From positions 310,001-374,000 of the forward strand of contig NZ_JACWZY010000001.1 in the NCBI RefSeq assembly GCF_014699005.1: a stretch of DNA of 64,000 nt, given 5' to 3'. The notes beneath the pieces are model-generated. The model saw nothing but the letters and a program-made list of their open reading frames with translations, was not told the DNA's origin and did no database searches. Origin of the DNA: Spirosoma profusum. Its GTDB lineage: Bacteria; Bacteroidota; Bacteroidia; Cytophagales; Spirosomataceae. The translations under genes and the position numbers were made by a program. This document shows, piece by piece, positions 6,606 to 45,502 of this stretch (position 1 is its first letter; each line of letters opens with the position of its first letter).

Positions 6606-6621
6606 CTCAAATATTATACCA
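6606..6621 (-). promoter_or_regulatory. Sigma-54-like -24/-12 promoter of permease 2
   Basis: The minus strand reads TGGTATAATATTTGAG. TGG and TTG keep the spacing of the sigma-54 consensus TGGCACG-N4-TTGCW; the -12 GC is not perfect. The start would be near 6595, leaving a leader of about 70 nt. The operator dyad is centred 64 bp upstream of the -24 GG, close to the other copies. Confidence 0.6.
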
Positions 6622-6663
6622 TTGCTTTTAACTACTTGATAATCAAAAAATTATAAAGAAAAA

Positions 6664-6712
6664 GTGAACGTAATACGTCCGGTTTCGGACGTATTACGTT
6701 CACTTGCGGACA
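6664..6712. promoter_or_regulatory. TGTCCG/CGGACA-type upstream operator of permease 2
   Basis: A perfect palindrome with 18-bp arms (6664-6681, 6686-6703; loop gttt) is centred on GTCCG-N4-CGGAC. A further half-site TGCGGACA lies at 6705-6712, centred 25 bp from the dyad. The same dyad-plus-half-site layout occurs at 21522-21560 and 45466-45502. It could also form an RNA hairpin if read through from the gene to its right. Confidence 0.65.
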
Positions 6713-6720
6713 AGCGAAAA

Positions 6721-6826
6721 AATAGGGCGTGAAGGTGGGGTGGAGCAAGGTGCAGGGAGCGTGGAGTAGGGATTCACTCTTCCCCGCAATCCCTGCCATC
6801 CACGCGACCCCACTCCCTGCCCGAAT
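6721..6826. repeat. Degenerate inverted repeat, GCAGGGA type
   Basis: This stretch after the stop of the serine hydrolase holds G-rich words (gcagggagcgtggagtaggg) pairing loosely with ccctgccatccacgcgacccc. Related words occur at 28676-28745. No coding potential is seen. Confidence 0.4.
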
Positions 6827-8005: not shown

Positions 8006-8114
8006 GGGTAATCAGTGGGTTTGGAAGGGTACAGAATCTGAACTTCGATTCGCCAGTTGGCTGGCTCACCACGTAGTACTGACTGCCAGATGCTATTTGT
8101 CTGCGCAGGGTTGC

Positions 8115-8954
8115 TTACTTCGCTTTCCGGACGTAGATATTGCCGTTCATGTTTTTCATCATGATCTCCCGGCCACCTCCGTTCACTTTGCCCTGTACCC
8201 ATTCTTCGATAGCGACCCGGTACATACCGTTTTGATTGCTCTTGTTAACTTTCGAAGCCGTTTTATCGACGTCCAGATCGAAATCAGTGAACATATCGCC
8301 CCGGTCCGATTTGAGTTTCAGATTCATTTTGCTCGAAGCCGGAAACGTTACGTCGACATTACCGTTCAGGGTCGAGAATGCCATTGGCGCTTCGGCGTTT
8401 ACACTTTTGAACGTAGCAAGCACGCCACCATTTACGGTGTTGGCAACCGCCGAACCCGATACGTTGGTCAGTTCAATTGAACCGTTTACGTTATTGACTT
8501 CCAGCTCACCCGATACGTTATCGACCGTAATCTGGCCGTGATTGACCGTGCTGATACGTAGCGAAAAATTCTGAGGCACTTTGATATTTAGGTCAATCGT
8601 TTGATTTATGGAGTTTGACTCAATCGTAATCGTGTTACTTTTCTCGCGGGCGCTCACATCGAACGGGTTACCTGGGCTGATACGTTTCATGCCATTGGAT
8701 GGCCGATCGTCACTGTCATCGCGTCGACCCCGCCGTGAATTACCCGAAGCCGAAATATCGATGATCACATCTTTGCCTGTGTGTCCCGTTACGTGTATCG
8801 AGCCATTAACCAGACCAGCCCGTAACGTACCGGGTTTACCAGGATCGCTGAGCGGAACTACCAGTTGTTCCTTCACCTCGTTCTGGGCGAACAGTGAACC
8901 GGTAGAAATCAGGCTTATAATCAGAATTCCAATTGTCAATTTAATCGTTTTCAT
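8115..8954 (-). CDS. Secreted DUF4097 beta-repeat protein, second copy (279 aa)
   Basis: A signal peptide (residues 1-23, ending SLFAQ) is followed by a run of short beta-strand repeats carrying NG or SG turns: VNGSIHVTG, VSGELEVNNVNGSIEL, TVNGGVLATF, TLNGNVDVTF, MNGNIYVRK. This is the DUF4097 (putative adhesin) beta-helix pattern. Its ATG overlaps the stop of the preceding DUF4097 gene by one base (TGATG at 8952-8956), indicating translational coupling. The two proteins share layout and probably arose by duplication. Family knowledge: DUF4097 proteins often follow ECF sigma/anti-sigma pairs, as here, and their biochemical role is not established. An N-rich, charged patch (GNSRRGRRDDSDDRPSN, residues about 71-87) interrupts the repeats. 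Confidence 0.88.
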   Translation of the reverse strand: MKTIKLTIGILIISLISTGSLFAQNEVKEQLVVPLSDPGKPGTLRAGLVNGSIHVTGHTGKDVIIDISASGNSRRGRRDDSDDRPSNGMKRISPGNPFDVSAREKSNTITIESNSINQTIDLNIKVPQNFSLRISTVNHGQITVDNVSGELEVNNVNGSIELTNVSGSAVANTVNGGVLATFKSVNAEAPMAFSTLNGNVDVTFPASSKMNLKLKSDRGDMFTDFDLDVDKTASKVNKSNQNGMYRVAIEEWVQGKVNGGGREIMMKNMNGNIYVRKAK

Positions 8955-9820
8955 CAGGATTGTTTTTTAATGTAAATGCTGCCGTTTAGTGTTTCAAATT
9001 TGAAAGTCTTGCCGCCACTACCGATGCGAACGGCAGTGTTTTTGTTGAGTCTGTAGGTCATACCGCTGCCCGTTTTCTGTTCGGTTTTTGTCGGCTGCAT
9101 GGGGAGTGCTTCCGCATTGGGAAAGTCGGTGTAAAATCCTCCGTGCATGCTTTTAAATTGTAGATCTGCCGATAGGTTAGCGGGGTACGTTACCCGAATA
9201 TCCCCGTTGATGGTGTGATAATAGGAGTTTTCGGGTGGATTGGCGAGGTAAGTGATGTCGACGCCACCATTAACCGTATTGGCGTCTGTAGTGCCTTTCA
9301 TGTTTGTCAGCGTAATGGCTCCGTTAACATTTCGCGCTTTCACATAGCCACTTACATCTTTCACGACAACTTCGCCCCGATTGACAGTCGACACCACCAG
9401 ATTCATGTGATTAGGTACTTTTACCGTAAAATCGAGGTTGAAATCGTACTCAATATCGCGGTCGTTATTCCAGTCGTTACGTCGTTGCCGACGAGGACGT
9501 GAATCGAATGGCTGAGCGATGTAAACAGTTACGCTATCGCCTTTCTGGTCGAAGCCAAGTTGAAATTCCTTTTTGCCAATTTCCAGATCACCGTTGTTTT
9601 TAGCGGTAATGGATTTGTTAACTTCTACGATAATCTTATCGCCTGAATAGCCTTCGACTTTAACAAAGCCGTGGATATTGTAAAGAGCGAATACGTTGTT
9701 GGGGCCTTTCGAAACCGTAAATTCTTTACGGATATTCTCTTTGGCTTCCTGAGCATTTGCTGGCAATTGGGCACAAGAGATGGCCACCCCCGCCAGCGCG
9801 GAGATTAGTAACAGTCGCAT
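8954..9820 (-). CDS. Secreted DUF4097 beta-repeat protein, first copy (288 aa)
   Basis: A signal peptide of about 23 residues (RLLLISALAGVAISCAQLPANAQ) precedes a beta-repeat domain: HGFVKVEGYSGDKIIVEV, VNRGEVVVKDVSGYVKARN, VNGAITLTN, TVNGGVDITY, TINGDIRVTYPA, LNGSIYIKKQS. The charged insert SRPRRQRRNDWNNDRDIEYD (about residues 107-126) parallels the one in the neighbouring copy. The cysteine at residue 16 is a possible but poor lipobox. It starts 27 nt after the anti-sigma gene ends and its stop overlaps the next start, so the set reads as one operon. The protein probably sits in the periplasm or at the cell surface; function unproven. Confidence 0.88.
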   Translation of the reverse strand: MRLLLISALAGVAISCAQLPANAQEAKENIRKEFTVSKGPNNVFALYNIHGFVKVEGYSGDKIIVEVNKSITAKNNGDLEIGKKEFQLGFDQKGDSVTVYIAQPFDSRPRRQRRNDWNNDRDIEYDFNLDFTVKVPNHMNLVVSTVNRGEVVVKDVSGYVKARNVNGAITLTNMKGTTDANTVNGGVDITYLANPPENSYYHTINGDIRVTYPANLSADLQFKSMHGGFYTDFPNAEALPMQPTKTEQKTGSGMTYRLNKNTAVRIGSGGKTFKFETLNGSIYIKKQS

Positions 9821-9847
9821 AGGTGTATTGGGATTTACGTTTTAAAA

Positions 9848-10690
9848 TCAGGATAAGTCCCGGATGGTCTGTTCGATTTTACCCTTGACCATGTGGTTTG
9901 TATTGTCATCGTGGAGCAATTGCCGAAGTGGTTTGATGGACCGTTTTTCCTGCAATTTTACCATCACATCAGCCAGCGCCGATTGTACCAGGGGCGAATC
10001 CTGACGGGTAATCGACTGAACCAACCCTTCCCGAACCGTCGGGTTATCAGCCAGTTTGGCCAGCGCTTCCAGCGTTACCAGCCGGACGTTCACATTTGCA
10101 TCGTTGTTTAATGTTGTCAGCAGGGCATCAATTACTTTACTATCGACCTGGTTAATTTCTTCGGTATAACTCACCGCCCGAAGCCGCTCCGAAGCCGCCG
10201 GATTTTCCAGTAGCGAGAGCATCATCATCTGCCGCATTTCCTGTACCTGCGTCGATAACGTATCGATCTGCTGCTTGTACGCCACGTTAGGCCCAGTAGC
10301 GTGATTAAACCAGTAACCCGCAAGAATACCAACTCCCACCAGTGCTACGCTGTAAGCCAGTCGAACGGCCAGTTTCGGCGTAAAGAACTCCCGGAATTTT
10401 GTGAGCAGATTATCCAGGGCGCTCTCCGGTTTATCGGCAATTGTTTCTTTATACGTATCAAGCATCGTCTGGAACCGGATGCGGGCCATCGGACTCGGCT
10501 CGGGCGTGGGTAACTGACCCATCATTTGCCAAAGCTGCCGTACCGAATCGGCTTCTGCCTGACAGGCTGGGCACTGGGCAAGGTGCGCGTCCATAATAGC
10601 TCCTTCAGCATCGGGCAGCTGATTGCTGAGCCATTCGGTCAATTGCTCTTGCGTTTGTTCACAGTTTATAGGCAGTTTTCCCATTTTCAA
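9848..10690 (-). CDS. Membrane anti-sigma factor with zinc finger and HEAT-like repeats (280 aa)
   Basis: The N-terminal zinc-binding anti-sigma motif is visible: C10, H36, C40 and C43 (HLAQCPAC). A single TM helix spans about 109-127 (LAYSVALVGVGILAGYWF), followed by a short coiled coil (about 138-160) and a C-terminal helical region with HEAT-like repeats (about 180-278: LLTTLNNDANVNVRLVTLEALAKL). The zinc-finger part should hold the sigma factor in the cytoplasm; the HEAT-like part lies beyond the membrane and could sense or bind a partner. The start overlaps the end of the sigma gene by 32 nt (26 nt if Met3 at 10684 is used), which fits coupled synthesis of a sigma/anti-sigma pair. Confidence 0.9.
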   Translation of the reverse strand: MKMGKLPINCEQTQEQLTEWLSNQLPDAEGAIMDAHLAQCPACQAEADSVRQLWQMMGQLPTPEPSPMARIRFQTMLDTYKETIADKPESALDNLLTKFREFFTPKLAVRLAYSVALVGVGILAGYWFNHATGPNVAYKQQIDTLSTQVQEMRQMMMLSLLENPAASERLRAVSYTEEINQVDSKVIDALLTTLNNDANVNVRLVTLEALAKLADNPTVREGLVQSITRQDSPLVQSALADVMVKLQEKRSIKPLRQLLHDDNTNHMVKGKIEQTIRDLS

Positions 10691-11231
10691 TAGTCAAGTA
10701 AATTTTTTTTAACTCATTCATGGCGCGATGCACCCGTACTTTTATGGCACCTTCGGTCGTGTTGAGTACTCGTGCAATTTCTTCGTACTTCAATTCCTGA
10801 AACCGGCTCAGTACCAGTACTTCGCGATTTTCTTCACTTAATCTGGCCATCGCCCGGTGAAGGGTCTCCAGTTCCTGTTTTTTCTGAAACTGTTCGTCGG
10901 CGGTGGTTCCTCCGCCAATTTTCTCTGCTACATCGGCCAAATCATAATGCTGGGACGAACGCTTGTTTTGCTTGCTGTGATCGACTATTACGTTACGTGC
11001 CAGGTGATACATCCAACTTCTGAATTCACCGTCCCCAGTAAACGTATGGCGGTATTTCAACATGCGGTAGAAAACCGTCTGCACCATGTCCTCGCTGGCT
11101 TCACGCTGCCCCGTCATGTGAAACAGGAAACCGAAAAGCGGCCGATTGTAACGCTCGAATAACAAACCCATCGTATCGATACGACCGGCTTTTACCTGCA
11201 GCATAAGCGCGTTGTCTGTCAGAGCGTTCAA
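10659..11231 (-). CDS. ECF RNA polymerase sigma factor (190 aa)
   Basis: Region 2 lies at about residues 20-92 (LLFERYNRPLFGFLFHMTG, EDMVQTVFYRML, FRSWMYHLARNVIVDHSK). Region 4 lies at about 122-178 and contains a helix-turn-helix (ELKYEEIARVLNTTEGAIKVRVHRAM). There is no region 1.1 or 3, as expected for group 4 sigma factors. It overlaps the anti-sigma gene and heads a same-strand set with two DUF4097 genes and a serine hydrolase, so an envelope-stress role is a reasonable inference. No autoregulatory promoter copy was identified; the 77 nt upstream hold no clear box before the 33-bp inverted repeat. Confidence 0.93.
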   Translation of the reverse strand: MNALTDNALMLQVKAGRIDTMGLLFERYNRPLFGFLFHMTGQREASEDMVQTVFYRMLKYRHTFTGDGEFRSWMYHLARNVIVDHSKQNKRSSQHYDLADVAEKIGGGTTADEQFQKKQELETLHRAMARLSEENREVLVLSRFQELKYEEIARVLNTTEGAIKVRVHRAMNELKKIYLTIENGKTAYKL

Positions 11232-11308
11232 GCGAGAAAGAACTGGTTTAATGGATTTTGGACTGGAAACTTCGGAAGTTAGGGAAGGTTACAGAAAAAA
11301 GTGAAAAA

Positions 11309-11386: not shown

Positions 11387-11387
11387 A

Positions 11388-11470: not shown

Positions 11471-12043
11471 TTATTGATTGCCCAGCTTAATGCCAAAACT
11501 GCGTTCGGTTTCTTTGATGATGGCCTGCTTCTCGCGCTCGCTCTTGCCTGTTACGTTGGCCGTGCGCTCAATGATCAACTCTTCGCCGTCTTTCTCAAAT
11601 GTATACTGCATCCAGAGACGACCGTTTTCTTTATCTTCCTGCACACGTACCGACGCTGGTGCTACGTCGCTCGGCGAAAAGGTGGGCGACGAATTTGCCT
11701 CTGTCGTGAATTCGTAGGAAAAATTGTTTTGCGCCGTTTTATCGGTGCAGGTGCTCTTCTTTTTCGAAATTTCAGGCTGAGGATCGTTGGAGGCAACCAT
11801 TGTCTGGGCAGCGGTTGCCTGCTCCAGCGAATCAACGATGCGGTATTCCAGTGCTTTTACGGCGCTGGCCTCCATCTCCGCTACGTTGAACGACGCATTG
11901 AAATGAACTGAACGACCGACGTCTTCAATATCAACGCGGATACGTAACTGCCGACCATCGGTCGTTACGTGCTTGCTCGACGACCGTTGGGCTATTGCAC
12001 CAAAGCTAACTGCGATTAGGAGGGCGGTAAATAGCGTTTTCAT
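11471..12043 (-). CDS. Small secreted protein, paralog of 29103-29684 (190 aa)
   Basis: The signal peptide is MKTLFTALLIAVSFGAIAQ. The mature part has an N-terminal beta-like segment (DGRQLRIRVDIEDVGRSVHFNASFNV), a low-complexity middle, and a C-terminal segment ENGRLWMQYTFEKDGEELI followed by REKQAIIKETERSFGIKL. The protein at 29103-29684 has the same order of elements and similar ends (ESGKLYLRYRFKKDGDEV, EDIEKSIGI), so I call them paralogs of an unrecognised periplasmic family. It has the same promoter layout as four permeases (sigma-54-like box at 12088-12103, TGTCCG dyad at 12156-12171), and its paralog directly follows permease 8. This suggests a shared function, still unknown. Confidence 0.85.
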   Translation of the reverse strand: MKTLFTALLIAVSFGAIAQRSSSKHVTTDGRQLRIRVDIEDVGRSVHFNASFNVAEMEASAVKALEYRIVDSLEQATAAQTMVASNDPQPEISKKKSTCTDKTAQNNFSYEFTTEANSSPTFSPSDVAPASVRVQEDKENGRLWMQYTFEKDGEELIIERTANVTGKSEREKQAIIKETERSFGIKLGNQ

Positions 12044-12087: not shown

Positions 12088-12103
12088 ATCTATCATCGTG
12101 CCA
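12088..12103 (-). promoter_or_regulatory. Sigma-54-like promoter of the 190-aa secreted protein gene
   Basis: The minus strand reads TGGCACGATGATAGAT. The -24 half (TGGCACG) is perfect; the -12 half lacks TTGC. Support comes from position: the operator dyad is centred 62 bp upstream of the -24 GG, the same as for permeases 2, 5 and 13. Confidence 0.5.
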
Positions 12104-12155: not shown

Positions 12156-12202
12156 TGTCCGATTTCGGACAAATTCGGACAAATTTTGTACGCCAGTGGA
12201 CA
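12156..12202. promoter_or_regulatory. TGTCCG-N4-CGGACA operator cluster
   Basis: A perfect dyad tgtccgatttcggaca (12156-12171) is followed by half-sites ttcggaca (12174-12181) and agtggaca (12195-12202). It lies between the minus-strand secreted protein gene and the plus-strand lipoprotein gene, so it might influence both. Confidence 0.65.
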
Positions 12203-14117: not shown

Positions 14118-16508
14118 CTATTCCGAACGTAGCGACTTCACCGGATTCGTCAGTGCCGCTTTGATACTTTGGAAGCTGATTGTGAGCAAAGCAATACCAA
14201 TTGCCAATAAACCCGCCAGTGCGAATAACCACCAGGGCATGTCGATTTTGTAGGCAAATCCGTTTAGCCAAAGATTCATACAGTAGTAGCCAACGGGAAC
14301 AGCTAGCAACAGAGCGATAAGTACCAGTTTTAGAAAATCTTTCGATAAGAGTGTTGTCAGGCTCATGACCGATGCGCCCAGCACTTTCCGAATACCGATT
14401 TCCTTGATACGCATTTCGGCGGTGAACGTAGCAAGGCCGAACAAACCAAGGCACGAAATCAGAATAGCTATAACCGCAAACGCATTGAACAACGTAGCAG
14501 TTCGGGCTTCAGTTTTGTACAATCGGTCGAACGTCTCATCCAGAAACTTATAGTCCAGCGGTCGGCTTGGAATCATATCAGTCCAGATTGACTGAATCGC
14601 TTTTAATGCTTCCGCTTCTTTGCCTGGAACAATTTTTACATAAACCCCACTTCGCCAGCCTGGGTTGTTGAACAGGACCAGTGGGGTTATTGCTTCGTGA
14701 AGGCTTTTGAAATGAAAATCTTTAACAACTCCAATCAGAACGCCCTTCATACCCTGAAAATGAAACCGTTGACCAACAATGGGTTTGCGTAGATTAAACT
14801 TGCGGACAGCGGTTTCGTTGAGCACTACATTTTGCTCATCAGCTGTATTATCTGGTTCAAACCAGCGACCCTGCGCCATTTTCAGATTGAATACTTTCTG
14901 ATACGTTGGCTCCACCGAAAGCTGGCCGACTGTAGGTTGAAAATCCGCCGGACGACCATCCCAATCAAGACTGCCGCTGTGCGAACTTTTGATTTCGACG
15001 ATATTCTGGCTGGCAAGGGTTGCGTCGGCAATGCTGGATTGCTCCAAAAGTCTGCTTTTAAAAACCGCCGGATCGACCTTCGGCTTGGCATTCCACGGAA
15101 TGGTGAGCGCCACAATATGGTCGCGATCATAACCGAGTTTAGTGGTCCGAATGAATCGAATCTGCTGGTAGACAACCAACGTAGCAATCAGGAAAATAAT
15201 GGAAATCGTAAACTGAACCACCACCAGACTCTTCCGAAAAACGCTGTTACTCGAACCTAATATGTTGAGGCCACGTATCGCGCGAACGGGCTGAAACGAC
15301 GACAGCAGCAACGCTGGATAAACGCCGGTAAGCACAACAGTGAGCAGGGCTGTTCCGCCTAGTACAAGCCAGATAGAGGGCGCTCCGAAACTAAGCGAAA
15401 ACGTCTTGTTGGTCAGGTTGTTGAAAACTGGTAGAAACCCATAAACAAGAAGAAGCGCCACGCCCAATGCCACCAGACACATGAGGATCGATTCAAGCAT
15501 AAACTGTCCAAAGAGCTGCGTGGAACCTGCGCCGATGATTTTTTTGACGCCAACTTCTTTGGCCCGGATACTGGCGCGGGCGGTTGTCAGATTCACGTAA
15601 TTGATACAGGCCATCAGCAGAATCGCCAGCGCAAGTCCTAAGAAAATGTATACAGTCCGCCGGTCGCCTTGCTCAACGTTGCTGCCGTAGCGGTCAATCG
15701 TGTCAAAATGAATGTCGGCCAGTGCTTCCAGCTCCAGCGTTATACTCGTCTCGGGTTTTCCCGTTTTTTCGTCTTTTTTGTCCTGGCGGATTATTTTGGT
15801 AATCTTCTGTTCGGCCTTTTTAACATCGGCATCTGGACGTAATACTACGTATGTTTCGTAGTTATAATTGTTCCAGTTGTAATCGTTTTTATACGTCTCT
15901 GGTTTCGCCAGATGAGCGGCAAGGGGTACCAGACAATCGTACTGAAAACTGGAATTAACCGGATTGTCTTTCATCACCGCCCGTACTACGTAGTCTAGCG
16001 TATCGATACGTATCAATTGGCCAACTGCTCTGGCCGAACCAAATAGTTGAGACGCTTTCGATTCGGTCAGGGCGATACTTCGGATATTTCGGTTAAAATC
16101 AGTGAAACTCCCATCGACAACAGTATAATCGAATACCGAAAACCAGTTTTCATCGACACAAGCCGCTTTTTCTATCCGGGTTAGCTGATCACCGATCTTC
16201 ACAGTTAGATCGGGATAAAAGGGTTTTGTGATCAATGTATGCTGTTCAATTTCAGGTACCTGTTGGAGATTTTTAGCTAATAGGAGAGGGGTTGTTGACC
16301 AGTGCCAGGTTTCTTCCTTATTGACCTGATTGTGCGTAATAATCAGCTTGGTACGTTCTGATTTCGCATGATACGTATCAAAACTCGACTCATTCTGTAC
16401 CCACAGCAAAATAAAAACCGCAGCGGCCATGCCAACCGCCAGACCTGTTACGTTCAACAAACCGAAAACTTTGGTTTTTAAGAGATTACGAATAGCAAAT
16501 CGAAGCAT
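14118..16508 (-). CDS. ABC transporter permease 3, MacB/FtsX type (796 aa)
   Basis: The start MLRFAIRNLLKTKVFG lacks the extra KIA residues of most copies, and the ATG at 16508 is the only suitable one. First FtsX core: ACINYVNLTTARASIRAKEV with GVKKIIGAGSTQLFGQ, where lysine replaces the usual arginine of VRK. The first periplasmic domain has an unusually charged stretch (IIRQDKKDEKTGKPETSI). The second periplasmic motif is MAQGRWF. The second FtsX core is KEIGIRKVLGASVMSLTTLL and the tail is NPVKSLRSE. It follows permease 4 by 58 nt with no promoter seen, so it is probably the last gene of the permease 5-4-3 run. Substrate unknown. Confidence 0.95.
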   Translation of the reverse strand: MLRFAIRNLLKTKVFGLLNVTGLAVGMAAAVFILLWVQNESSFDTYHAKSERTKLIITHNQVNKEETWHWSTTPLLLAKNLQQVPEIEQHTLITKPFYPDLTVKIGDQLTRIEKAACVDENWFSVFDYTVVDGSFTDFNRNIRSIALTESKASQLFGSARAVGQLIRIDTLDYVVRAVMKDNPVNSSFQYDCLVPLAAHLAKPETYKNDYNWNNYNYETYVVLRPDADVKKAEQKITKIIRQDKKDEKTGKPETSITLELEALADIHFDTIDRYGSNVEQGDRRTVYIFLGLALAILLMACINYVNLTTARASIRAKEVGVKKIIGAGSTQLFGQFMLESILMCLVALGVALLLVYGFLPVFNNLTNKTFSLSFGAPSIWLVLGGTALLTVVLTGVYPALLLSSFQPVRAIRGLNILGSSNSVFRKSLVVVQFTISIIFLIATLVVYQQIRFIRTTKLGYDRDHIVALTIPWNAKPKVDPAVFKSRLLEQSSIADATLASQNIVEIKSSHSGSLDWDGRPADFQPTVGQLSVEPTYQKVFNLKMAQGRWFEPDNTADEQNVVLNETAVRKFNLRKPIVGQRFHFQGMKGVLIGVVKDFHFKSLHEAITPLVLFNNPGWRSGVYVKIVPGKEAEALKAIQSIWTDMIPSRPLDYKFLDETFDRLYKTEARTATLFNAFAVIAILISCLGLFGLATFTAEMRIKEIGIRKVLGASVMSLTTLLSKDFLKLVLIALLLAVPVGYYCMNLWLNGFAYKIDMPWWLFALAGLLAIGIALLTISFQSIKAALTNPVKSLRSE

Positions 16509-16566
16509 AGGGGAGGAGGTTTGAGGTAGAAATTAATTGTTTCTCCGCGCATCGCTGCGTAATAAC

Positions 16567-18918: not shown

Positions 18919-18993
18919 AGGGTTTAGGGCTAAGGGCATAGGGTTCGGACTAGCAGTTTTTTTACCCCACGCCCCCAACCCTATGCCCTATGC
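18912..18993. repeat. Degenerate GGGCATAGGGT-type inverted repeat
   Basis: The sequence gcatagggtttagggctaag on one side pairs imperfectly with cccaaccctatgccctatgc on the other. It fills the gap between permeases 5 and 4 and overlaps the first codons of permease 4. Confidence 0.6.
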
Positions 18994-18996
18994 TAT

Positions 18997-21453: not shown

Positions 21454-21469
21454 CCCAAATGCCATACCA
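21454..21469 (-). promoter_or_regulatory. Sigma-54-like promoter of permease 5
   Basis: The minus strand reads TGGTATGGCATTTGGG, nearly identical to the boxes of permeases 6 and 13. The dyad at 21522-21536 is centred 62 bp upstream of the -24 GG. The leader would be about 58 nt. Confidence 0.7.
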
Positions 21470-21521: not shown

Positions 21522-21560
21522 TGTCCGCAAACGGACGTAGCAGCCGACCATTTGCGGACA
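21522..21560. promoter_or_regulatory. TGTCCG dyad plus half-site, operator of permease 5
   Basis: tgtccgcaaacggac (21522-21536) is followed by half-site tgcggaca (21553-21560), centred 27 bp away. This is the same core as the permease 13 operator (tgtccgcaaacggacg). Confidence 0.7.
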
Positions 21561-24085: not shown

Positions 24086-24101
24086 CGCAAATGCCTTGCC
24101 A
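24086..24101 (-). promoter_or_regulatory. Sigma-54 promoter of permease 6 (best match)
   Basis: The minus strand reads TGGCAAGGCATTTGCG, matching TGGCACG-N4-TTGC with one change. Predicted start is near 24075. The operator dyad is centred 73 bp upstream of the -24 GG. Confidence 0.8.
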
Positions 24102-24164: not shown

Positions 24165-24200
24165 TGTCCGATACTGGACAATCACTGTCCCCAGTCGGAC
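24165..24200. promoter_or_regulatory. Double TGTCC/GGACA operator of permease 6
   Basis: Two dyads lie side by side: tgtccgatactggaca (24165-24180) and tgtccccagtcggac (24186-24200). This is the expected position for a sigma-54 enhancer-binding protein. Confidence 0.7.
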
Positions 24201-24216
24201 GGCCATTTCAACGCAA

Positions 24217-29102: not shown

Positions 29103-29684
29103 TTACTTCGCCGGAATGCCGATTGATTTTTCAATATCTTCAATCATTGTCTCCCGTTCTTCCTGCGATTTATTCGGAGCGTCAATTGTGCGTTCATAAG
29201 TAACCTCGTCACCATCTTTCTTAAAGCGGTAGCGCAGGTACAATTTTCCAGATTCGGAATTGTACCGTACTACTTTTGTAAACGGTTTTTCTCCACCTGC
29301 TGTAACTGTCATTGCCTGATTATCAGAACTATTGATCGATACGGTCGAGCCGTCGCTACTGCTACTGATTGAAACTGACTCACTGTGTCGAGGGGCTCTG
29401 GGTGCGCGTGGCGCTCGGGGTGCTCTGGGCGCTCGTGGTGGCTCAGGCATACTTACGTTTAGCGAATCCAGAACCCGTTCAGTGAGCGCCGTTCGCTCTT
29501 CCTTTGTCAAATTCGTTACGTCAAATGTGCGGTCATAATCGACGTCCTTACCGTCGACAGTACCGTTTACCTGAATCGATAAGGAGTTGCCATCATGGCG
29601 TATACTACGGCTGACGGAGTTGTGATGCTGAGCAATGGCGAATGAACTGGTCAGTACGAGGGCACTAAGGAGGAGTGTTTTCAT
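29103..29684 (-). CDS. Small secreted protein with PRA repeats, paralog of 11471-12043 (193 aa)
   Basis: Signal peptide MKTLLLSALVLTSSFAIAQ, then a beta-like segment (DGNSLSIQVNGTVDGKDVDYDRTFDV), a proline-rich stretch of five near-identical PRA units (residues about 82-98), a serine-rich segment and a C-terminal segment ESGKLYLRYRFKKDGDEV followed by EERETMIEDIEKSIGI. The order and both ends match the 190-aa protein at 11471-12043; the middle differs and only this copy has the PRA repeat. It begins 14 nt after the permease 8 stop on the same strand, so the two are very probably co-transcribed. A periplasmic partner of the permeases is a reasonable hypothesis. Confidence 0.85.
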   Translation of the reverse strand: MKTLLLSALVLTSSFAIAQHHNSVSRSIRHDGNSLSIQVNGTVDGKDVDYDRTFDVTNLTKEERTALTERVLDSLNVSMPEPPRAPRAPRAPRAPRAPRHSESVSISSSSDGSTVSINSSDNQAMTVTAGGEKPFTKVVRYNSESGKLYLRYRFKKDGDEVTYERTIDAPNKSQEERETMIEDIEKSIGIPAK

Positions 29685-37843: not shown

Positions 37844-40276
37844 TTATTCCGAACGTAACGATTTCACTGGATTCACCAGCGCGGCTTTGATGCTCTGAAA
37901 ACTCACCGTTAGTAGGGCAATAACAATAGCCAGTAGACCGGCCAGCGCAAACACCCACCATTCAATTCCTATTCTATATTGAAAATCCTGTAACCAGGAC
38001 TGCATTAAGTACCAGGCAATTGGGGAGGCAATGAGAATAGCCACAACAACCAGCTTCAGGAAGTCTTTTGACAGCAGTGAAACAATACTGACGACCGATG
38101 CCCCTAGCACCTTGCGAACGCCAATCTCTTTGGTACGGGCTTCGGCTGTGAAAGCGGCTAATCCAAACAGACCCAGACAGGCAATAAAGATGGTCAGACC
38201 AGCGAATACCTGATAAAGCAGGCCCATCTGGCGTTCGGCTTTATAATAATTGTTGATGCTTTCGTCGTAGAATTTACCGTTAAAAGCTACTTCCGGAAAT
38301 GTTTTCTCGTAGACCGACTTAATCCGGTCAACGGTTTGTGGCAAATTCTTCGACTGGATTTTGATACCTCCATCCCAGTAAAATTTATCGGCAATCGTAA
38401 TTAGCATTGGATTGATCGCTTCCTTGGCCGATTGCGTATGGAAATCTTTCACAACTCCAACAATCGAAGTAGGTTCCGAGCCGCCCACACGAAGTTTCTT
38501 ACCAATTACAGATTCTGGATTTTTGATGTTTAACTTTTTGAGTAGCGTCTCATTCACTACTAACTTGTTGATTGTATCATTGACGGCATAAGGTCCGCCA
38601 GCCAGAAACTTCATTCCATACGTAGTGAAATAATCACCATCCGCGTACTTCATCGAAATTTCGAAATCTTCTTCTTTCGAGAGGTTGGTGAATGCAAAAC
38701 TACTTCGCCAGTTATTTTCAGAAGAAGGGTGATCAGACGAAAATGACACGGCTTTTACCTCCGGCAAACGTAACAGCTCATTGCGGAACGTATTATATCG
38801 TGTACGATACTCAGTATCCATGTTGAGCGTAAATACGCCTTCTTTTTCAAATCCAAGGTTAAGCCGACTCACATAATTCATCTGCCGCAGATTGATAACC
38901 GTACTGATTATCAGTACGAGCGCGGTAGCAAATTGAAATACAATCAGTCCCTGACGTAGTGAGACGCCCCGCATCCAGCCTTTCGACAAACTCTTGCGAA
39001 ATACCTCCAGGGGTGAAAATGACGACAGAATTAACGATGGATATGCGCCCGAAAGCAGCGTGAGCACCAACAACAATCCGATCAGGTAAAGGCCTATGGC
39101 TGGTGTAAAATACAGTGATGGGTCGGTTGGTATGTCAAATACTTGTTCAATTAATGGGAGTGCCCAGTACGCCAGCATGACGCCCAGACTAACCGACGCC
39201 AGCACTACCAGAAACGTTTCGATCAGAAACTGGAACACCAGCTGCCATTTCTGGCTTCCCAGCACTTTCCGAACACCCACTTCTTTGGCTCGTCGGGTAG
39301 CCAGCGCCGAATAAATATTGATAAAATTGATGCAGGCCATCAACAGAATCAGAATGCCAACTACCGCAATATTCTGAATACGTTGTTTGGGTACTGTTTT
39401 GCTGGTGAAATTGGACAGGCGATCATCATAGTGCATATCGGCCAGCGGACTTAGAAAATGCGTTTTTCGGTCGTTGGATTTCCGATTCTCGTAATGTTTG
39501 TTGGCGAATTTATCGAGCAGGACATTAGCCGAAGCCACCGAAAATTTTTCCGGCATCAGCACAAAAATCTGGTCATTGCTGCTCGTGCTGCCCCAGTTGT
39601 TGAAGTCGCCAAAACCAAACAGATCCGGTCGGGCGCGTTTGGAGGCATAAGAAATCACCAGATTTGTCGGGAAATCAGTGGGCTTCGGAGCGTCTTCCAA
39701 TACGCCGACCACCTGCATGGTCGTCTGGTTATTGATACGTATATATTTCCCGATAGCCTGCTGATAATCATTGAAATATTTCTCCGCGTAAGTCTTCGAT
39801 AAAACCACTACGTTTGGGCGGCTCAATACGTCGGGCCGACCAAGAATCCAGTGGAAATCGAAAAGGTTGAAAAAGTCCGGTTCAACCAGAAGCCCTTCAT
39901 TTCGCTCGATAAACTTTGAATTTGAATTGGTCGCTTTGGAATCACTCCCCAAAACCGTAACCTGCGGATCGAGTGTACCATAAACGGGCACAACTTTTTC
40001 AAACTGTAGGATATCGGTTTTTAGGGCTGCGGCAACCGGAAGCGCACTGCCCGGCGTGAAACTTTCGTTGCCGTTCGGATAAATATCGTGGCGTGCTACC
40101 CGATAAATCCGGTCGTAATGCGTATGGAACGTATCGAAACTCAGTTCATAACGTACCACCAGAAACAATAACAGCGCAGCCGCTACGCCCACACTCAGCC
40201 CCAACGTATTAAGCAACGTAAAGGCGCGTTTGCGGACCAGATTCCGCCAGGCGATTTTGATATAGTTAAGAAGCAT
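37844..40276 (-). CDS. ABC transporter permease 11, MacB/FtsX type (810 aa)
   Basis: Starts MLLNYIKIAWRNLVRKRAFT. First FtsX core: ACINFINIYSALATRRAKEV with GVRKVLGSQKWQLVFQ, an unusual IYSALAT in place of LATARS. The second periplasmic motif is FLAGGPYAVN, where the Arg of GRxF is lost. VGVVKDFHTQSAKEAINPM also departs from the common SLHxxIxPL. Second FtsX core KEIGVRKVLGASVVSIVSLL, tail NPVKSLRSE. It is bracketed by composite repeats A3 and A4, which carry the same core in the same orientation. Substrate unknown; the changed motif suggests a diverged periplasmic specificity. Confidence 0.95.
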   Translation of the reverse strand: MLLNYIKIAWRNLVRKRAFTLLNTLGLSVGVAAALLLFLVVRYELSFDTFHTHYDRIYRVARHDIYPNGNESFTPGSALPVAAALKTDILQFEKVVPVYGTLDPQVTVLGSDSKATNSNSKFIERNEGLLVEPDFFNLFDFHWILGRPDVLSRPNVVVLSKTYAEKYFNDYQQAIGKYIRINNQTTMQVVGVLEDAPKPTDFPTNLVISYASKRARPDLFGFGDFNNWGSTSSNDQIFVLMPEKFSVASANVLLDKFANKHYENRKSNDRKTHFLSPLADMHYDDRLSNFTSKTVPKQRIQNIAVVGILILLMACINFINIYSALATRRAKEVGVRKVLGSQKWQLVFQFLIETFLVVLASVSLGVMLAYWALPLIEQVFDIPTDPSLYFTPAIGLYLIGLLLVLTLLSGAYPSLILSSFSPLEVFRKSLSKGWMRGVSLRQGLIVFQFATALVLIISTVINLRQMNYVSRLNLGFEKEGVFTLNMDTEYRTRYNTFRNELLRLPEVKAVSFSSDHPSSENNWRSSFAFTNLSKEEDFEISMKYADGDYFTTYGMKFLAGGPYAVNDTINKLVVNETLLKKLNIKNPESVIGKKLRVGGSEPTSIVGVVKDFHTQSAKEAINPMLITIADKFYWDGGIKIQSKNLPQTVDRIKSVYEKTFPEVAFNGKFYDESINNYYKAERQMGLLYQVFAGLTIFIACLGLFGLAAFTAEARTKEIGVRKVLGASVVSIVSLLSKDFLKLVVVAILIASPIAWYLMQSWLQDFQYRIGIEWWVFALAGLLAIVIALLTVSFQSIKAALVNPVKSLRSE

Positions 40277-40293
40277 AATCGTTGCTTAAATTT

Positions 40294-40388
40294 GTAGAGA
40301 CAAGGCATGCCTTGTCTCCTGTGCGTCAGCAATATCAGCCAGTAAATGAAACCATTCGGTCATGAGACAAGGCATGCCTTGTCTCTAC
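40294..40388. repeat. Composite repeat A4 with palindromic ends
   Basis: Nearly identical to A3 (core gtgcgtcagcaatatcagcc then gtaaatgaaaccattcggtc), same orientation, between permeases 12 and 11. The close match of A3 and A4 suggests recent copying. Confidence 0.8.
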
Positions 40389-40392
40389 GTAA

Positions 40393-42858
40393 TTATTCAC
40401 TACGCAAACTCTTCACCGGGTTCATCAGCGCGGCTTTGATACTTTGGAAACTCACCGTAATAAACGCAATGCCCAGCGCCAATAATCCAGCCACTACGAA
40501 TATCCACCACGGAATATCAATCTTGTAGGCGAAATTCTGCAACCATTTGTCCATCGCATACCACGCCACCGGCGAAGCGATCAGGATGGCGATAACGACC
40601 AGCGTCAGAAAATCCTTGGAAAGCAGCAGGACGATGTTCGTAACGGATGCGCCAAGCACTTTGCGAACCCCAATTTCTTTGGTACGTTGCTGAGCCGCAA
40701 AAGCCGCCAGACCAAATAAACCGAGGCACGAAATCAGAATCGAGATAGCTGTAAAATAGCTTACAATACGTGATGTGCGGGCTTCGGCTTCGTAATTCTT
40801 CTGAAAATCTTCGTTCAGAAAGGTGTACTGAAAAGGCTCGTCGGGACGTAGCGCTTTCCATTTTGCTTCCATAAAACTCAGTACGTTCGCCATATTAGAC
40901 GTATTGACGTGCGCAATAATGTAATTGTATTCGGGCTGGCTGTTCAGTAGGAACGTAAACGGCTCGATGGTTTGATGAAGGTTCTCATAGTGGAAATCCT
41001 TAAGAACGCCCACAATCTCGAAATGGTGAGTTTCGCCCTGCCAATCGAAATTCAGTTTTTGCCCAACGGCTTTATTCAGCGGAATCTGAAATTTACGTAG
41101 CGTCGCTTCGTTCACCACGAGCCGGTTGGCCGTATCGCCCGGAAACTGGCGGGAGAACATCCGCCCCGTAGCCAGTTTAAACCCCATTGTTTGCAGGTAA
41201 TCATAATCGACCCGATTCGTTTTGACACTTTGGCCGTTCAGCGCCGTTTGTTCAGGTTTGTACAAAAGAAAATCAGTCGCATTATTTATGCCTGGATAGT
41301 ACTGGGTTCCGGCTGCGCCAACTACCTGACTATTTTGCAGAATTTCGTTTCGATAGGCTGTATAAATTTCGTGAGCCTCCCGGCTACTTAGCGGAATAGC
41401 AATCTGTTGATCCTGCATAAATCCAAGCGATGTGTTTCGCAGGAAACTCATTTGTTCCTGAATCACGAACGTAGCAAGTACCAAGCCCACCGAAATCACG
41501 AACTGAAACACCACCAGTCCACGACGTAACGCGACCGCCGATAACGTATTATTGAACTTACCTTTCAACACCTGCGCCGGATTGAACAACGACAGATAAA
41601 AAGCCGGGTAGCTTCCAGCCAGTATACCTGTCAGCAGCGCCAGGCCAATAAACGTAGCTAAAATACGTGGCTCGAATAATTCAAATATGTTTAATGACTT
41701 AGCTGTCAGTTGATTGAATACGGATAAGGATGCTAAAACCAGCCCCATCGCAATGACCAGCGCCAGTAAGGACAAGACAATCGATTCGCCCAGAAACTGC
41801 CCAATGAGCGAGCCACGTTCAGCGCCCATCACTTTCCGAACCCCAACTTCAGCCGCCCGTTTCGCTGAGCGGGCCGTGGATAGGTTCATGAAATTTATAC
41901 AGGCAATCAGCAACGTAAACAGCGCAATCGAGGCAAGAATGTACAGATACGTAGTGGTGTTGGTGGGTGTAACGATGGTATTTATTTCGTCGAAAAGATG
42001 CAGCTCGGGCACCCGGACAAGAAACAGTTTTTTGTCGAAACCCACCGCTTTCAGATCATTGCTGGCGTACTTCTCCATAAAGGCTGGAAACTTTTGCCGC
42101 AACTTGCCTGCATCTGCACCGGAACGTAGTTTCAGGTACGTAACGAACATATTGTTGCAGCAGAAATCCAGTTTACCCTCACGCAGAAAATTGCCGACCC
42201 AGCCTGACGACATTGGTAAAAAGAACTTGGCATCGATGTGTGAACGAGCACTTTCGTCACGGTAAACGCCCGTTACTTTAAATTCTTCGCCGTTGCCGGT
42301 TGTGCCGCTGATACGTATCAGTTTGTTCAGCGCCGACGTAGTACCAAATAGTTTGCGGGCAATTTCTTCCGATAATACTACCGAATTGCGGTCGGCTAAA
42401 GCAGTACGTGAATTTCCTTCTGTGAACTGATACGAAAACAGGTCAAAAAAGGTAGAATCGACCTGGTATCCTTTGGTTTCGTAGAATGATTTGATGGCTT
42501 TGCCTCCTTCCCGAACCTGGAGCAGTGCTTTATCGTCGATTAGATTGATCCATAATCGGGACACCTGCTCAATTTCCGGGAACTCGGATTTCAGGGCAAA
42601 CGCATAGGGAGCCGATGCGGTGGCGTTCTTTTCGCTGCCTGCCCCTTTATTACCCCTCCCAATAATGGTTTCCTGGCCTAACAGGTACAGTCGATCAGCA
42701 TACTGATGGTGTTTATCGAACGACAATTCGCTACGTATATAAAGCAACAGTAGCATGCAGCAGGTCATGCCAACCGACAAACCGAAAATATTAATGGCTG
42801 AGAACGATTTGCTACGTAGCAGATTCCTAACAGCGATTTTGAGATAGTTAAGAAGCAT
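40393..42858 (-). CDS. ABC transporter permease 12, MacB/FtsX type (821 aa)
   Basis: The longest member of the array. Starts MLLNYLKIAVRNLLRSKSFS. The first TM helix has adjacent cysteines (TCCMLLLLY), and the first periplasmic domain has another pair (LDFCCNNMF). First FtsX core: ACINFMNLSTARSAKRAAEV with GVRKVMGAERGSLIGQ. Second periplasmic motif LATGRMF, followed by VGVLKDFHYENLHQTIEPF. Second FtsX core KEIGVRKVLGASVTNIVLLL, tail NPVKSLRSE. Composite repeats A4 and A5 flank it. The Cys pair in the periplasmic domain could form a disulfide. No promoter was found in the 101 nt upstream. Confidence 0.95.
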   Translation of the reverse strand: MLLNYLKIAVRNLLRSKSFSAINIFGLSVGMTCCMLLLLYIRSELSFDKHHQYADRLYLLGQETIIGRGNKGAGSEKNATASAPYAFALKSEFPEIEQVSRLWINLIDDKALLQVREGGKAIKSFYETKGYQVDSTFFDLFSYQFTEGNSRTALADRNSVVLSEEIARKLFGTTSALNKLIRISGTTGNGEEFKVTGVYRDESARSHIDAKFFLPMSSGWVGNFLREGKLDFCCNNMFVTYLKLRSGADAGKLRQKFPAFMEKYASNDLKAVGFDKKLFLVRVPELHLFDEINTIVTPTNTTTYLYILASIALFTLLIACINFMNLSTARSAKRAAEVGVRKVMGAERGSLIGQFLGESIVLSLLALVIAMGLVLASLSVFNQLTAKSLNIFELFEPRILATFIGLALLTGILAGSYPAFYLSLFNPAQVLKGKFNNTLSAVALRRGLVVFQFVISVGLVLATFVIQEQMSFLRNTSLGFMQDQQIAIPLSSREAHEIYTAYRNEILQNSQVVGAAGTQYYPGINNATDFLLYKPEQTALNGQSVKTNRVDYDYLQTMGFKLATGRMFSRQFPGDTANRLVVNEATLRKFQIPLNKAVGQKLNFDWQGETHHFEIVGVLKDFHYENLHQTIEPFTFLLNSQPEYNYIIAHVNTSNMANVLSFMEAKWKALRPDEPFQYTFLNEDFQKNYEAEARTSRIVSYFTAISILISCLGLFGLAAFAAQQRTKEIGVRKVLGASVTNIVLLLSKDFLTLVVIAILIASPVAWYAMDKWLQNFAYKIDIPWWIFVVAGLLALGIAFITVSFQSIKAALMNPVKSLRSE

Positions 42859-42872
42859 GGAAGTTTGATTAT

Positions 42873-42956
42873 GTAGAGACAGGGCATGCCCTGCTCCTGA
42901 CCGGATGGTTATATTATATTGCTGACGCGTTCGAGACAGGGCATGCCCTGTCTCTA
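42873..42956. repeat. Composite repeat A5, shortened
   Basis: The GTAGAGACAGGGCATGCCCTG ends are present but the core is reduced to about 35 nt (ctgaccggatggtt, attgctgacgc). Same orientation as A1 and A2, between permeases 13 and 12. Confidence 0.75.
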
Positions 42957-42959
42957 GAA

Positions 42960-45365
42960 TTATTCGCTTCGTAAACTCTTAATTGGATTCGTAAGCGCGG
43001 CTTTCACGCTTTGGAAACTTACTGTTAACAGAGCAATCAGGACCGTCAGACCGCCCGCCAGCACGAATACCCACCAATGAATGTCGGTGCGGTAGGCGAA
43101 ATCGTTCAGCCAGTTGTGCATGGCGTACCAGGCAACGGGCGAGGCAATAACCAGCGCGACCAGCACAAGTTTCATGAAATCTTTAGAGAAAAGCGCCACC
43201 AGACTGATTTCCGATGCACCAAGGACTTTCCGAATGCCAATCTCTTTGGTACGTTGCTCGGCCATGAACATCGACAAACCGAACAGCCCCAGACACGAAA
43301 TCAGAATGGCAATACCGGCGAAAACACTGAATAGCGTTTGCTGCGTCTGCTCGCGGGCGTAGAGCCGACCAAAACGTTCATCCAGAAACTGGTAGTCGAA
43401 AGGACGACCTGGGAAAAAGCGTTTCCAAACCGATTCTACGTTTTTCACCGCCGTCGGTACGTCGCCTTTTAGCGGAATCGACAGCCAGTTGAAATCTTCC
43501 GTCGACATGACCATGGCCAGAGCCGCCATTTGCTGGTGCAGCGATTCGAAGTGAAAGTCTTTCGTTACGCCAATAATCTGCCCTTTGGCCCGGCCATACT
43601 GGAAGGGTTTGCCAATGGCCTGCTCGGGTGTCCAGCCCAACTGACGTACCGCCGTTTCGTTCAGCACAACCATCGATGTATCAGTCGAATAATTGCGGGA
43701 AAAGTTACGACCAGCGGCCATTTGGATTTGATACGCCGGAATGAAATCGTAATCGACACGTAGCCCGCGCAGGTTGATTTTTACGGGAGCCATCGTATCG
43801 CCTTTCATCGCCATCGCCCCCTGCGAATCGAGTAGCCGACCAGATGGTATCCGCGACGAGCGACCTACGTCACGTACTGAACCGGTTTGTATCAATTGCT
43901 CTTTCAGCGTCTCATGATTCGTTGTCGAATCGCTCACATCGTAGATAATCAGCACCTGATCTTTAGCGTAGCCCAGTCGATAATCCTGAATGTATTTCAT
44001 CTGATTATATACAATGGCGGTGCTGATAATGAGTGCAATAGCAATAGCAAATTGCGTCACCACCAATACCTGCCGCAGTTTACCGCTACGTAGGTTCGAT
44101 GCGATCTGCCCTTTTAATACGCCCAATGGCCGGAACGATGTCAGGAAGAAAGCCGGATAACTACCTGCTACTAACCCCGTTAGCAACGTAATACTGAGCA
44201 GGATGGTAAGAAAAACCGGATCGAGTAATTGATGAAGCGCCAGCTTCTTATTCGTGAAATCGTTAAGCGCTGGCAGTCCGAGTACCACCAGCAGTATGGC
44301 TATTACCAGTGCGAAAACGACTAGTACAAACGACTCACTCAAAAACTGACTAATGAGCTGGGTGCGCAAAGCCCCTACAACTTTGCGCATTCCCACCTCT
44401 TTGGCTCGCCCCGCTGACCGGGCCGTTGCCAGATTCATGTAATTGATGCAGGCAATCAGCAAAATGAACAAGCCGATGGCCGAAAAGAGATAAATATAAC
44501 TGATGTCGCCAGTAGGTTCTACCTCCGAATCCGTGTGGGAGTAAAGGTGAATATCTGCTACGTTTTGCAAGTTCAGCACCGACCAGGTCGACGGCTTTGA
44601 GCCGTCTCCGGCGGGTATATGTTTGTTCTGAAAGGCTGGGAAAGCCGCTTCGATACGTTTCGGGTCGATGCCGGGCTTCAGCAGCATATACGTATTGAAT
44701 GAGTTATTACCCCAGTTGGTACGTAGCTGTTCGGCTCCGTAAATGCGGTTGTCGTTGAACGTACTGAACGAAACCAGAAAGTTGGGGTGAAAGTGTGCCT
44801 GGTTCGGCAAGGGTTCAAAAACGCCCGTTACGGTCAGGTCGAACTGGTCGTTAATCCGAACTATTTTCCCCATCGGATTTTCCTTACCGAAATATTTCTC
44901 AGCCATAGGCCGGGAAAACATAATCGAAAATGGATTGACCAGCGCATAATTCGGATTACCGCTAGTAAGCTTAAAATCAAAGACTTTGAATAGATTAGCT
45001 TCCGCAAAAAAAACTTCGTCTTCATTGAAGGAATGCTCTCCATACCGAATCAGCCCACCGTTGTCGATAGTTCGCACCACTTCTTCTGCTTCCGGAAAAT
45101 CCTGCTTGATCAACGGCCCAAACGGCGGTGCGGCTTGCGCTAACTTCAGCGAGGCTGTTCCTTCCGATGAGAGAAAAGTTCGGGTAACCCGATAAATACG
45201 GTCGGCTTTGGTGTTATAGCGGTCGTAGCTGAGTTCGTCTTTAACGTAGAGCGCAATGAGCAGGAAACACGCCAGCCCAACGGCAACGCCTACAATGTTA
45301 ATGAAGCTGAACGCTTTGTGTTTCCGCAGATTGCGAAAGGCGATGAGCAGATAATTTCGTAGCAT
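42960..45365 (-). CDS. ABC transporter permease 13, MacB/FtsX type (801 aa)
   Basis: Starts MLRNYLLIAFRNLRKHKAFS. First FtsX core: ACINYMNLATARSAGRAKEV with GMRKVVGALRTQLISQ. Second periplasmic motif MAAGRNF, then QLGW and IGVTKDFHFESLHQQMAAL. Second FtsX core KEIGIRKVLGASEISLVALF, tail NPIKSLRSE. It has a sigma-54-like promoter (45397-45412) with a predicted leader of only about 20 nt and a dyad operator at 45466-45502. As the rightmost gene of the 29699-45365 run it could be the first gene of a long unit, although composite repeats lie between the genes. Confidence 0.95.
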   Translation of the reverse strand: MLRNYLLIAFRNLRKHKAFSFINIVGVAVGLACFLLIALYVKDELSYDRYNTKADRIYRVTRTFLSSEGTASLKLAQAAPPFGPLIKQDFPEAEEVVRTIDNGGLIRYGEHSFNEDEVFFAEANLFKVFDFKLTSGNPNYALVNPFSIMFSRPMAEKYFGKENPMGKIVRINDQFDLTVTGVFEPLPNQAHFHPNFLVSFSTFNDNRIYGAEQLRTNWGNNSFNTYMLLKPGIDPKRIEAAFPAFQNKHIPAGDGSKPSTWSVLNLQNVADIHLYSHTDSEVEPTGDISYIYLFSAIGLFILLIACINYMNLATARSAGRAKEVGMRKVVGALRTQLISQFLSESFVLVVFALVIAILLVVLGLPALNDFTNKKLALHQLLDPVFLTILLSITLLTGLVAGSYPAFFLTSFRPLGVLKGQIASNLRSGKLRQVLVVTQFAIAIALIISTAIVYNQMKYIQDYRLGYAKDQVLIIYDVSDSTTNHETLKEQLIQTGSVRDVGRSSRIPSGRLLDSQGAMAMKGDTMAPVKINLRGLRVDYDFIPAYQIQMAAGRNFSRNYSTDTSMVVLNETAVRQLGWTPEQAIGKPFQYGRAKGQIIGVTKDFHFESLHQQMAALAMVMSTEDFNWLSIPLKGDVPTAVKNVESVWKRFFPGRPFDYQFLDERFGRLYAREQTQQTLFSVFAGIAILISCLGLFGLSMFMAEQRTKEIGIRKVLGASEISLVALFSKDFMKLVLVALVIASPVAWYAMHNWLNDFAYRTDIHWWVFVLAGGLTVLIALLTVSFQSVKAALTNPIKSLRSE

Positions 45366-45396
45366 AACAACTTGAAGCAGGGTTCCCTGCTAACTG

Positions 45397-45412
45397 CCCA
45401 AATGCCGTACCA
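45397..45412 (-). promoter_or_regulatory. Sigma-54-like promoter of permease 13
   Basis: The minus strand reads TGGTACGGCATTTGGG, differing from the permease 5 box at one base. The dyad is centred 63 bp upstream of the -24 GG. Confidence 0.7.
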
Positions 45413-45465
45413 GAAAATTAACTAACTGATTATCAGTAACTATTTTGATGTTTATTAACCCCTGT

Positions 45466-45502
45466 TGTCCGCAAACGGACGTAAATCGGACGGTTACGGA
45501 CA
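45466..45502. promoter_or_regulatory. TGTCCG dyad plus half-sites, operator of permease 13
   Basis: tgtccgcaaacggac (45466-45480) is followed by tcggacgg and the half-site tacggaca (45495-45502), the latter centred 25 bp from the dyad as at 6664-6712. Confidence 0.7.

Follow-up and report, generated by a model that had tools for sequence, protein, structure and literature searches.

The 64,000-nucleotide stretch of the Spirosoma profusum contig NZ_JACWZY010000001.1 analysed here, called the window below (C11:310001-374000 of the 8.73-Mb draft genome), encodes 18 complete permeases of ~800 residues, every one on the minus strand. Seven of them are recognized by Pfam, mostly through duplicated MacB_PCD and FtsX domains, and the rest were identified by mutual similarity. 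ABC_tran was not found in the 21 window open reading frames (ORFs) scanned with Pfam, which include 7 of the 18 complete permeases, and the window permeases do not have the ATPase of their own beside them that characterizes the MacB type. Beyond the window, the array extends to a MacA-ATPase-permease operon (C11:388240-392808), which adjoins the gene of an NtrC-type regulator. Permeases 2, 5, 6 and 13 are each preceded by a −24/−12 box with dyads upstream of it (Table 1). Judging from the sequences, these four composite sites are very probably sigma-54 promoters, each served by a pair of activator sites upstream, and belong to one regulon under the NtrC-type regulator.

A sequence-only reading of the window had placed four boxes and four CGGAC-type dyads before these permeases, and all of them are present where it put them. 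The distances that it gave from dyad centre to box (64, 62, 73 and 63 bp) match the 54, 52, 63 and 53 bases that we count between the 16-bp dyad and the TGG. It had also described a half-site 25-27 bp beyond the dyad in three cases. There is indeed an upstream element, but it is a second, weaker dyad, found at all four sites and centred 21, 23, 21 and 21 bp upstream of the proximal one. Because the longest ORF of permease 2 begins inside the promoter, its start was re-read at MLRNFLN; the conserved N-terminus, MLRNFLNIALRN, starts at 6526, 3' of the box.

Table 1. Features of the window and of the regulator locus beyond it (window positions unless marked C11)
Feature	Position	Strand	Sequence or remark
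Permease 2	4163..6526	-	duplicated MacB_PCD/FtsX by Pfam
−24/−12 sigma-54 promoter (predicted), permease 2	6606..6621	-	TGGTATAATATTTGAG
Proximal activator dyad, permease 2	6676..6691	-	CGTCCGAAACCGGACG
Distal dyad, permease 2	6697..6712	-	TGTCCGCAAGTGAACG
Toastrack DUF4097 protein	8115..8954	-	Pfam
Toastrack-like DUF4097	8954..9820	-	Pfam 21.5 bits, under cut-off 22.9
zf-HC2/HEAT anti-sigma-like protein	9848..10690	-	Pfam
Extracytoplasmic function (ECF) sigma factor	10659..11231	-	Pfam
190-residue secreted-looking protein	11471..12043	-	first gene of fifth-site operon
Fifth promoter candidate	12088..12103	-	TGGCACGATGATAGAT; non-canonical −12, TAG for TTG
Fifth proximal dyad	12156..12171	-	TGTCCGAAATCGGACA; perfect
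Fifth-site distal dyad	12187..12202	-	TGTCCACTGGCGTACA; 31 bp upstream
Permeases 5, 4, 3	14118..21384	-	probable operon; intergenic gaps 19 and 59 bp
−24/−12 sigma-54 promoter (predicted), permease 5	21454..21469	-	TGGTATGGCATTTGGG
Proximal dyad, permease 5	21522..21537	-	CGTCCGTTTGCGGACA
Distal dyad, permease 5	21545..21560	-	TGTCCGCAAATGGTCG
Permease 6	21603..23990	-	Pfam
−24/−12 sigma-54 promoter (predicted), permease 6	24086..24101	-	TGGCAAGGCATTTGCG
Proximal dyad, permease 6	24165..24180	-	TGTCCAGTATCGGACA; gap one turn beyond other three
Distal dyad, permease 6	24186..24201	-	CGTCCGACTGGGGACA
Permeases 13, 12, 11	37844..45365	-	probable operon; intergenic gaps 102 and 117 bp
−24/−12 sigma-54 promoter (predicted), permease 13	45397..45412	-	TGGTACGGCATTTGGG
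Proximal dyad, permease 13	45466..45481	-	CGTCCGTTTGCGGACA
Distal dyad, permease 13	45487..45502	-	TGTCCGTAACCGTCCG
NtrC-type response regulator	C11:394959-396344 (window coordinates 84959-86344)		21 kb past window end, same contig
Histidine kinase	C11:398647-400002		same contig as the regulator

Linkage of dyad and box

Taken singly, the two elements were rejected as evidence, as neither is significant in the window. The box (≤2 mismatches) has 4 matches in the window against 1.97 expected, a number reached in 12 of 100 shuffles, and the dyad (≤3 mismatches) has 29 against 24.1 expected, reached in 22 of 100. Genome-wide, the dyad occurs at 30 places against 25 in a backwards control, a count that itself proves little. 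It is the link of dyad to box, not the number of dyads, that carries weight. In 25 of the 30 genome-wide near-perfect dyads (≤1 mismatch), which were selected without regard to a promoter box, TGG-N8-TTG lies 40-75 bp away on one side, and each other spacer in the range 4 to 16 occurs near 0-2 of the 30. Three of the five dyads lacking this element are inside ORFs, one pairs with a nearby dyad as its distal member, and the last is the fifth window site, with its TAG. The dyad predicts the −24/−12 geometry independently.

Building a matrix and scanning the genome had been suggested as a check. When the matrices were derived from 22 sites located elsewhere in the genome, the four window sites scored 53.0 (permease 6), 45.7, 43.4 (permease 2) and 34.8, and the best matrix score in the backwards control (the same 519,836 bases, both strands) is 15.5. 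Random occurrence of the composite elsewhere, named in advance as an observation that would speak against the regulon, was not seen for the strict composite, with 12 matches in the genome and none in the backwards control. The strict pattern is narrow: it catches only the site at 24165 among the four of the window, because the other three have CGTCCG halves. A looser half-dyad pattern gave 24 matches, some of them without a dyad, against 5 in the control. Among 291 genomes of the order, 23 contain the strict composite, with 75 matches among those listed and none in the backwards control. No weaker sites were found with the matrix before the other 14 window permeases; the best box upstream of them scores 14.0 and lies ~300 bp before permease 15, within the neighbouring permease gene, and the best dyad in the same stretch scores 5.0.

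The spacing between dyad and box falls into two classes. Gaps in 27 sites of the genome (score ≥40) are 52-55 bp (16 sites), 63-64 bp (10) or 67 bp (1), and those in 30 sites of relatives are 52-55 bp (13) or 62-65 bp (17), so that none of the 57 has a gap of 56-61 bp. The classes are ~10 bp apart, i.e. one helical turn, which fits the need of a looped activator for one face of the DNA. We put no weight on a p-value for the gaps, since the sites are related by descent.

The architecture is conserved in the genus. The footprint loci are those retained by the search, which matched 34 of 36 genomes for permease 5 and 27 of 36 for permease 13. Permease 5 is preceded by a composite with a score >20 in 25 of 25 loci, counting our own, at gaps of 51-53 or 65 bp, and permease 13 in 18 of 25, again counting our own. 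The remaining seven lack a composite within 320 bp upstream of the permease. Six of them carry a gene for a 98-residue protein before the permease, and the composite was not found in the stretch examined; these permeases may be operon-internal. The seventh (L282) has a composite with a score of 34.3 on the other strand. TGG is conserved in the footprints of permease 5, permease 13 and the fifth site. In other genomes, composites also precede genes whose closest counterpart in the window is permease 5 (L208), 2 (L212) or 10 (L204). Among 30 loci of relatives (30 of 36 matches, in ten genomes), the sites are followed by a permease in 26 and by a 124-residue protein in three, and one has no ORF of 90 residues in reach.

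The candidate activator and competing explanations

A profile search of the genome yielded six strong and four weak Sigma54_activat matches, and there is one rpoN gene (PF04552, one match, E 3.2e-54). An NtrC-type regulator whose own promoter carries the dyad had been anticipated. The regulator was found on the same contig, with the domain order receiver, Sigma54_activat (AAA+) and Fis helix-turn-helix, but in our genome the dyad, with one mismatch, fronts the neighbouring MacA operon (C11:392988), 2 kb off. A PMT_2 gene lies between the two both here and in the Spirosoma loci. We collected the best 80 of 578 relatives of this C11 regulator, from Bacteroidota and a few other phyla; the closest among them, in Spirosoma telluris, S. 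fluviale and S. arboris, are 86-87% identical to it. A kinase homologue is encoded within 6 kb of 71 of these 80 relatives, and a divergent MacA homologue within 1.5 kb of 50. The dyad TGTNCG-N4-CGNACA (≤1 mismatch, 350 bp upstream) precedes 36 of the 80, compared with 32 of 1600 windows drawn at random from these loci without restriction to intergenic DNA. The 23 genomes (of 291) in which the strict composite occurs all belong to the 163 with a relative of the regulator (E ≤1e-130) and none to the 128 without (Fisher p 8.5e-7, uncorrected for relatedness or genome size). The 140 genomes that have a relative and no strict match say little, because the pattern is narrow. The proposal of one enhancer-binding activator for the regulon thus draws support from the dyad-box link, its recurrence in the order and the linked NtrC-type gene. 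A single activator appears well supported, though not proven, and the C11 regulator is most likely that activator.

Besides the limits on these last two comparisons, several observations weigh against this interpretation. The sigma-54-contacting loop of the C11 activator is GAFTDA, not GAFTGA, a motif called invariant in sigma-54 activators in PMC12316311. The −12 elements of the window are TTGAG, TTGGG, TTGCG and TTGGG, with the C of the textbook GC mostly lost (TTGC in one of the four boxes), and the −12 triplet is not TTG in 3 of the 25 permease 5 loci (L258-L260). Owing to their variant −12, the boxes of the fifth site have low matrix scores, −1.3 to 11.1. Moreover, not all permeases have a site. 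In the genome regions examined, picked from a genome-wide MacB_PCD search (146 matches), we counted 77 permease ORFs of at least 300 residues, 73 of them of at least 700. A site lies ≤1200 bp in front of 23 of these 77, another 23 come no more than 150 bp after such a gene, and the remaining 31 fit neither case, the permease behind MacA falling among the last by this rule; the corresponding numbers for the 18 window permeases are 4, 4 and 10. Lastly, a second activator, encoded on C35, might bind overlapping sites.

The loop change is a trait of the family: 79 of the 80 relatives (L109-L188) have Asp where GAFTGA has its second Gly. The C35 activator has GAYTDA, and the other four strong activators of the genome have GAFTGA or GSFTGA. 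The same Gly-to-Asp change is described as making NorR fully constitutive (PMC2941729), and in a study of D. vulgaris GAFTDA and GAYTDA are counted among the variants that would keep activity (PMC4641369). VfmH also has GAFTDA; as reported in PMC10714721, a pull-down with VfmH did not recover RpoN.

The C35 activator provides an alternative, improbable in our estimation, in which the regulon is real and this paralogue is its activator, or both regulators share the sites. The two proteins are 44% identical, with recognition helices TRFALYRR and SRQALYRR, respectively, and a related site, TGTGCGATTTTGCACA (C35:38789, minus strand; gap 53, score 31.9), precedes the HlyD/TolC/ATPase/permease operon of the C35 activator itself. 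However, that site is off consensus in both halves, with TGTGCG for TGTCCG and TGCACA for CGGACA, and it is the TGTCCG-type dyad that fronts the MacA operon adjoining the C11 activator, as well as many relatives of the latter.

Two further explanations concern the elements rather than the regulator. As PadR-like genes follow many of the sites, and Pfam PadR was found for both that were tested (L050, L064), the dyad could be the operator of a repressor, e.g. these PadR-like proteins, with the sigma-54 box driven by another activator. We consider this very unlikely: no PadR gene comes first behind the dyad in the four window operons, in the operons of 124-residue proteins or in the MacA operon, the dyad is linked to the activator gene, and its location >50 bp upstream of −24, in two gap classes ~10 bp apart, is the place of an activator and not that of a blocking repressor. 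The boxes end in TTTG, and the housekeeping −7 consensus of Bacteroidota is TAnnTTTG, which might make the box an ordinary housekeeping element and its TGG incidental. That reading is hardly credible, as TAnnTTTG is present in 1 of 25 box regions, whereas TGG stands 8 bp before TTG in 25 of the 30 dyad neighbourhoods and is kept in the footprints.

Predicted regulon members and neighbouring genes

Sites of the genome on C5, C13, C44, C67, C77 and C81 are followed by a PadR-like gene and then permeases. Others precede permeases alone, 124-residue proteins or the MacA operon. The 124-residue protein tested matches DUF3244 (26.0 bits, cut-off 25), and one gene of this type is followed by genes for an ECF sigma factor and a HEAT protein. 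One site lies before the gene of a 351-residue protein with weak LiaG similarity, far under cut-off, and another before an ATP-binding cassette (ABC) ATPase gene (C4:82864), an uncertain assignment as the gene is ~500 bp from the box. Some permeases, on C5, C13, C44, C77 and C81, have ~870-920 residues and are extended at the N-terminus. L064, the one of these that was tested, is preceded by a PadR gene and matches the NCBIfam permease prefix domain 2.

A fifth site of the window, absent from the sequence-only reading, has its box 52 bp downstream of a dyad and faces genes for the 190-residue protein, an ECF sigma factor, a zf-HC2/HEAT anti-sigma-like protein and two toastrack-type proteins. 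Its box, TGGCA(C/T)G with T(A/G)G at −12, is found in 20 of 20 loci (19 congeneric and our own), 52 bp after the best dyad in nine and 73-74 bp after it in 11; in the latter, the dyad picked by the script is probably the distal one. We regard this site as a candidate sigma-54 promoter whose −12 departs from the usual form. The 190-residue protein has no match in Pfam or NCBIfam, and matches to it (E ≤0.001, some weak) occur in 35 of the 36 genomes of the genus. Two more members of its family are encoded among the permeases, at 29103-29684 of the window and C11:387666-388205, with 29% identity each, the second being a partial, weak match. Divergent from the fifth site, a gene on the plus strand (12475-14064) codes for a 529-residue lipoprotein-like protein whose DUF4350 similarity is just under cut-off.

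ATPases similar to that of the MacA operon (E ≤1e-25) are encoded at 15 places in the genome, none of them within the window, and the nearest are 55%, 51%, 47% and 44% identical to it. With 77 permease ORFs for 15 ATPase places, ATPase sharing is a reasonable inference, and the orphan permeases probably rely on an ATPase from another locus. The MacA-operon ATPase (C11:390750-391427) is far more conserved than the best permease match beside it (L109-L126, L152), with 98-99% identity in Spirosoma loci and, in those of L111-L126 where it was found, 83-92%. Such conservation would be expected of a shared partner.

In several genomes, a protein of 97-98 residues is encoded directly before permeases (window 3765-4058; L218, L275, L276, L278, L279, L288, L289). 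Compared by eye, these proteins start alike, with IAIPI...GKQ.IEI.

Known systems and the proposed mechanism

The C11 activator resembles enhancer-binding proteins of the NtrC/ZraR/AtoC type in its receiver-AAA+-Fis helix-turn-helix order, the upstream dyads, the −24/−12 box and the presence of rpoN. Its best NCBIfam matches include a PEP-CTERM response regulator, ZraR, AtoC and NtrC, but the scores are under the model cut-off in all of the best 25 of 66 matches, and thus it is none of those named regulators. It differs from these systems by GAFTDA in place of GAFTGA and by its predicted targets, mostly ABC permeases without an ATPase. The regulon is a well-supported case of a known kind, unusual in the loop of its probable activator and in its set of targets.

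Other features of the regulon have parallels as well. The permeases resemble the ADOP permeases with PadR (TIGR03434, TIGR03433), which are likewise duplicated MacB_PCD/FtsX proteins of ~800 residues, many of them encoded behind a PadR-like gene; in two Dyadobacter, 28 and 33 ADOP-type copies are reported as called by RAST (PMC11573002). The two permeases tested, at 42960-45365 of the window and in L064, score 292.8 and 334 with TIGR03434, and the one PadR tested scores 36.4 with the ADOP-associated PadR model, under the respective curated cut-offs of 622.3 and 101.8. The tested permeases are accordingly ADOP-like and were not filed as ADOP. A sigma-54 activator, PspF, is also employed by the Psp system of Proteobacteria. 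Toastrack proteins and PadR are shared with the PSP/Lia envelope-stress, toastrack and HAAS-PadR systems described in PMC11237479, from which our regulon differs by having a two-component response regulator. That article also reports HAAS domains fused to MacB/FtsX permeases; in the long permease tested here, the prefix domain is instead the NCBIfam permease prefix domain 2.

Closest to our findings, a 2025 study reported a statistical enrichment of sigma-54 promoters before FtsX-like permeases (COG0577) in Bacteroidia, which it called first evidence (PMC12316311). The likeness lies in sigma-54 promoters before FtsX-type permeases in Bacteroidota. Its account of this link assigns neither an operator nor an activator, and the terms 'upstream activat', 'UAS' and 'Spirosoma' are absent from its main text. 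In searches of open-licence PMC papers aimed at the regulon, we found no account of the operator, of a C11-type activator or of the extent of the regulon.

For binding, activation, the signal and ATPase sharing, we infer the following course. Upon an envelope signal, activator dimers would fill the two dyads, usually 21 bp, or two helical turns, apart. The bound activator would assemble its AAA+ ring and contact sigma-54 polymerase at a box on the same face of the DNA, across a gap of ~53 or 63 bp. This would switch on the MacA-ATPase-permease operon and many permeases with no adjacent ATPase, often behind a PadR-like gene, together with small secreted-looking proteins and ECF-sigma/toastrack operons. 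More tentatively, and with more doubt than confidence, we propose that the Bacteroidota response-regulator subfamily with the Asp loop might be a dedicated envelope-stress activator, which in Spirosoma and its kin would command expanded orphan ABC permeases that share one or a few ATPase/MacA hubs. If this is true, a single phosphorylation event would bring export or sensing complexes into play in a combinatorial array.

An operator and a probable activator can now be proposed for a large transporter family of unknown function, which indicates the genes that are likely switched on together. The activator family offers a natural setting to ask how an Asp loop that is constitutive in NorR stays under control, and the role of the orphan duplicated permeases becomes approachable via one regulator.

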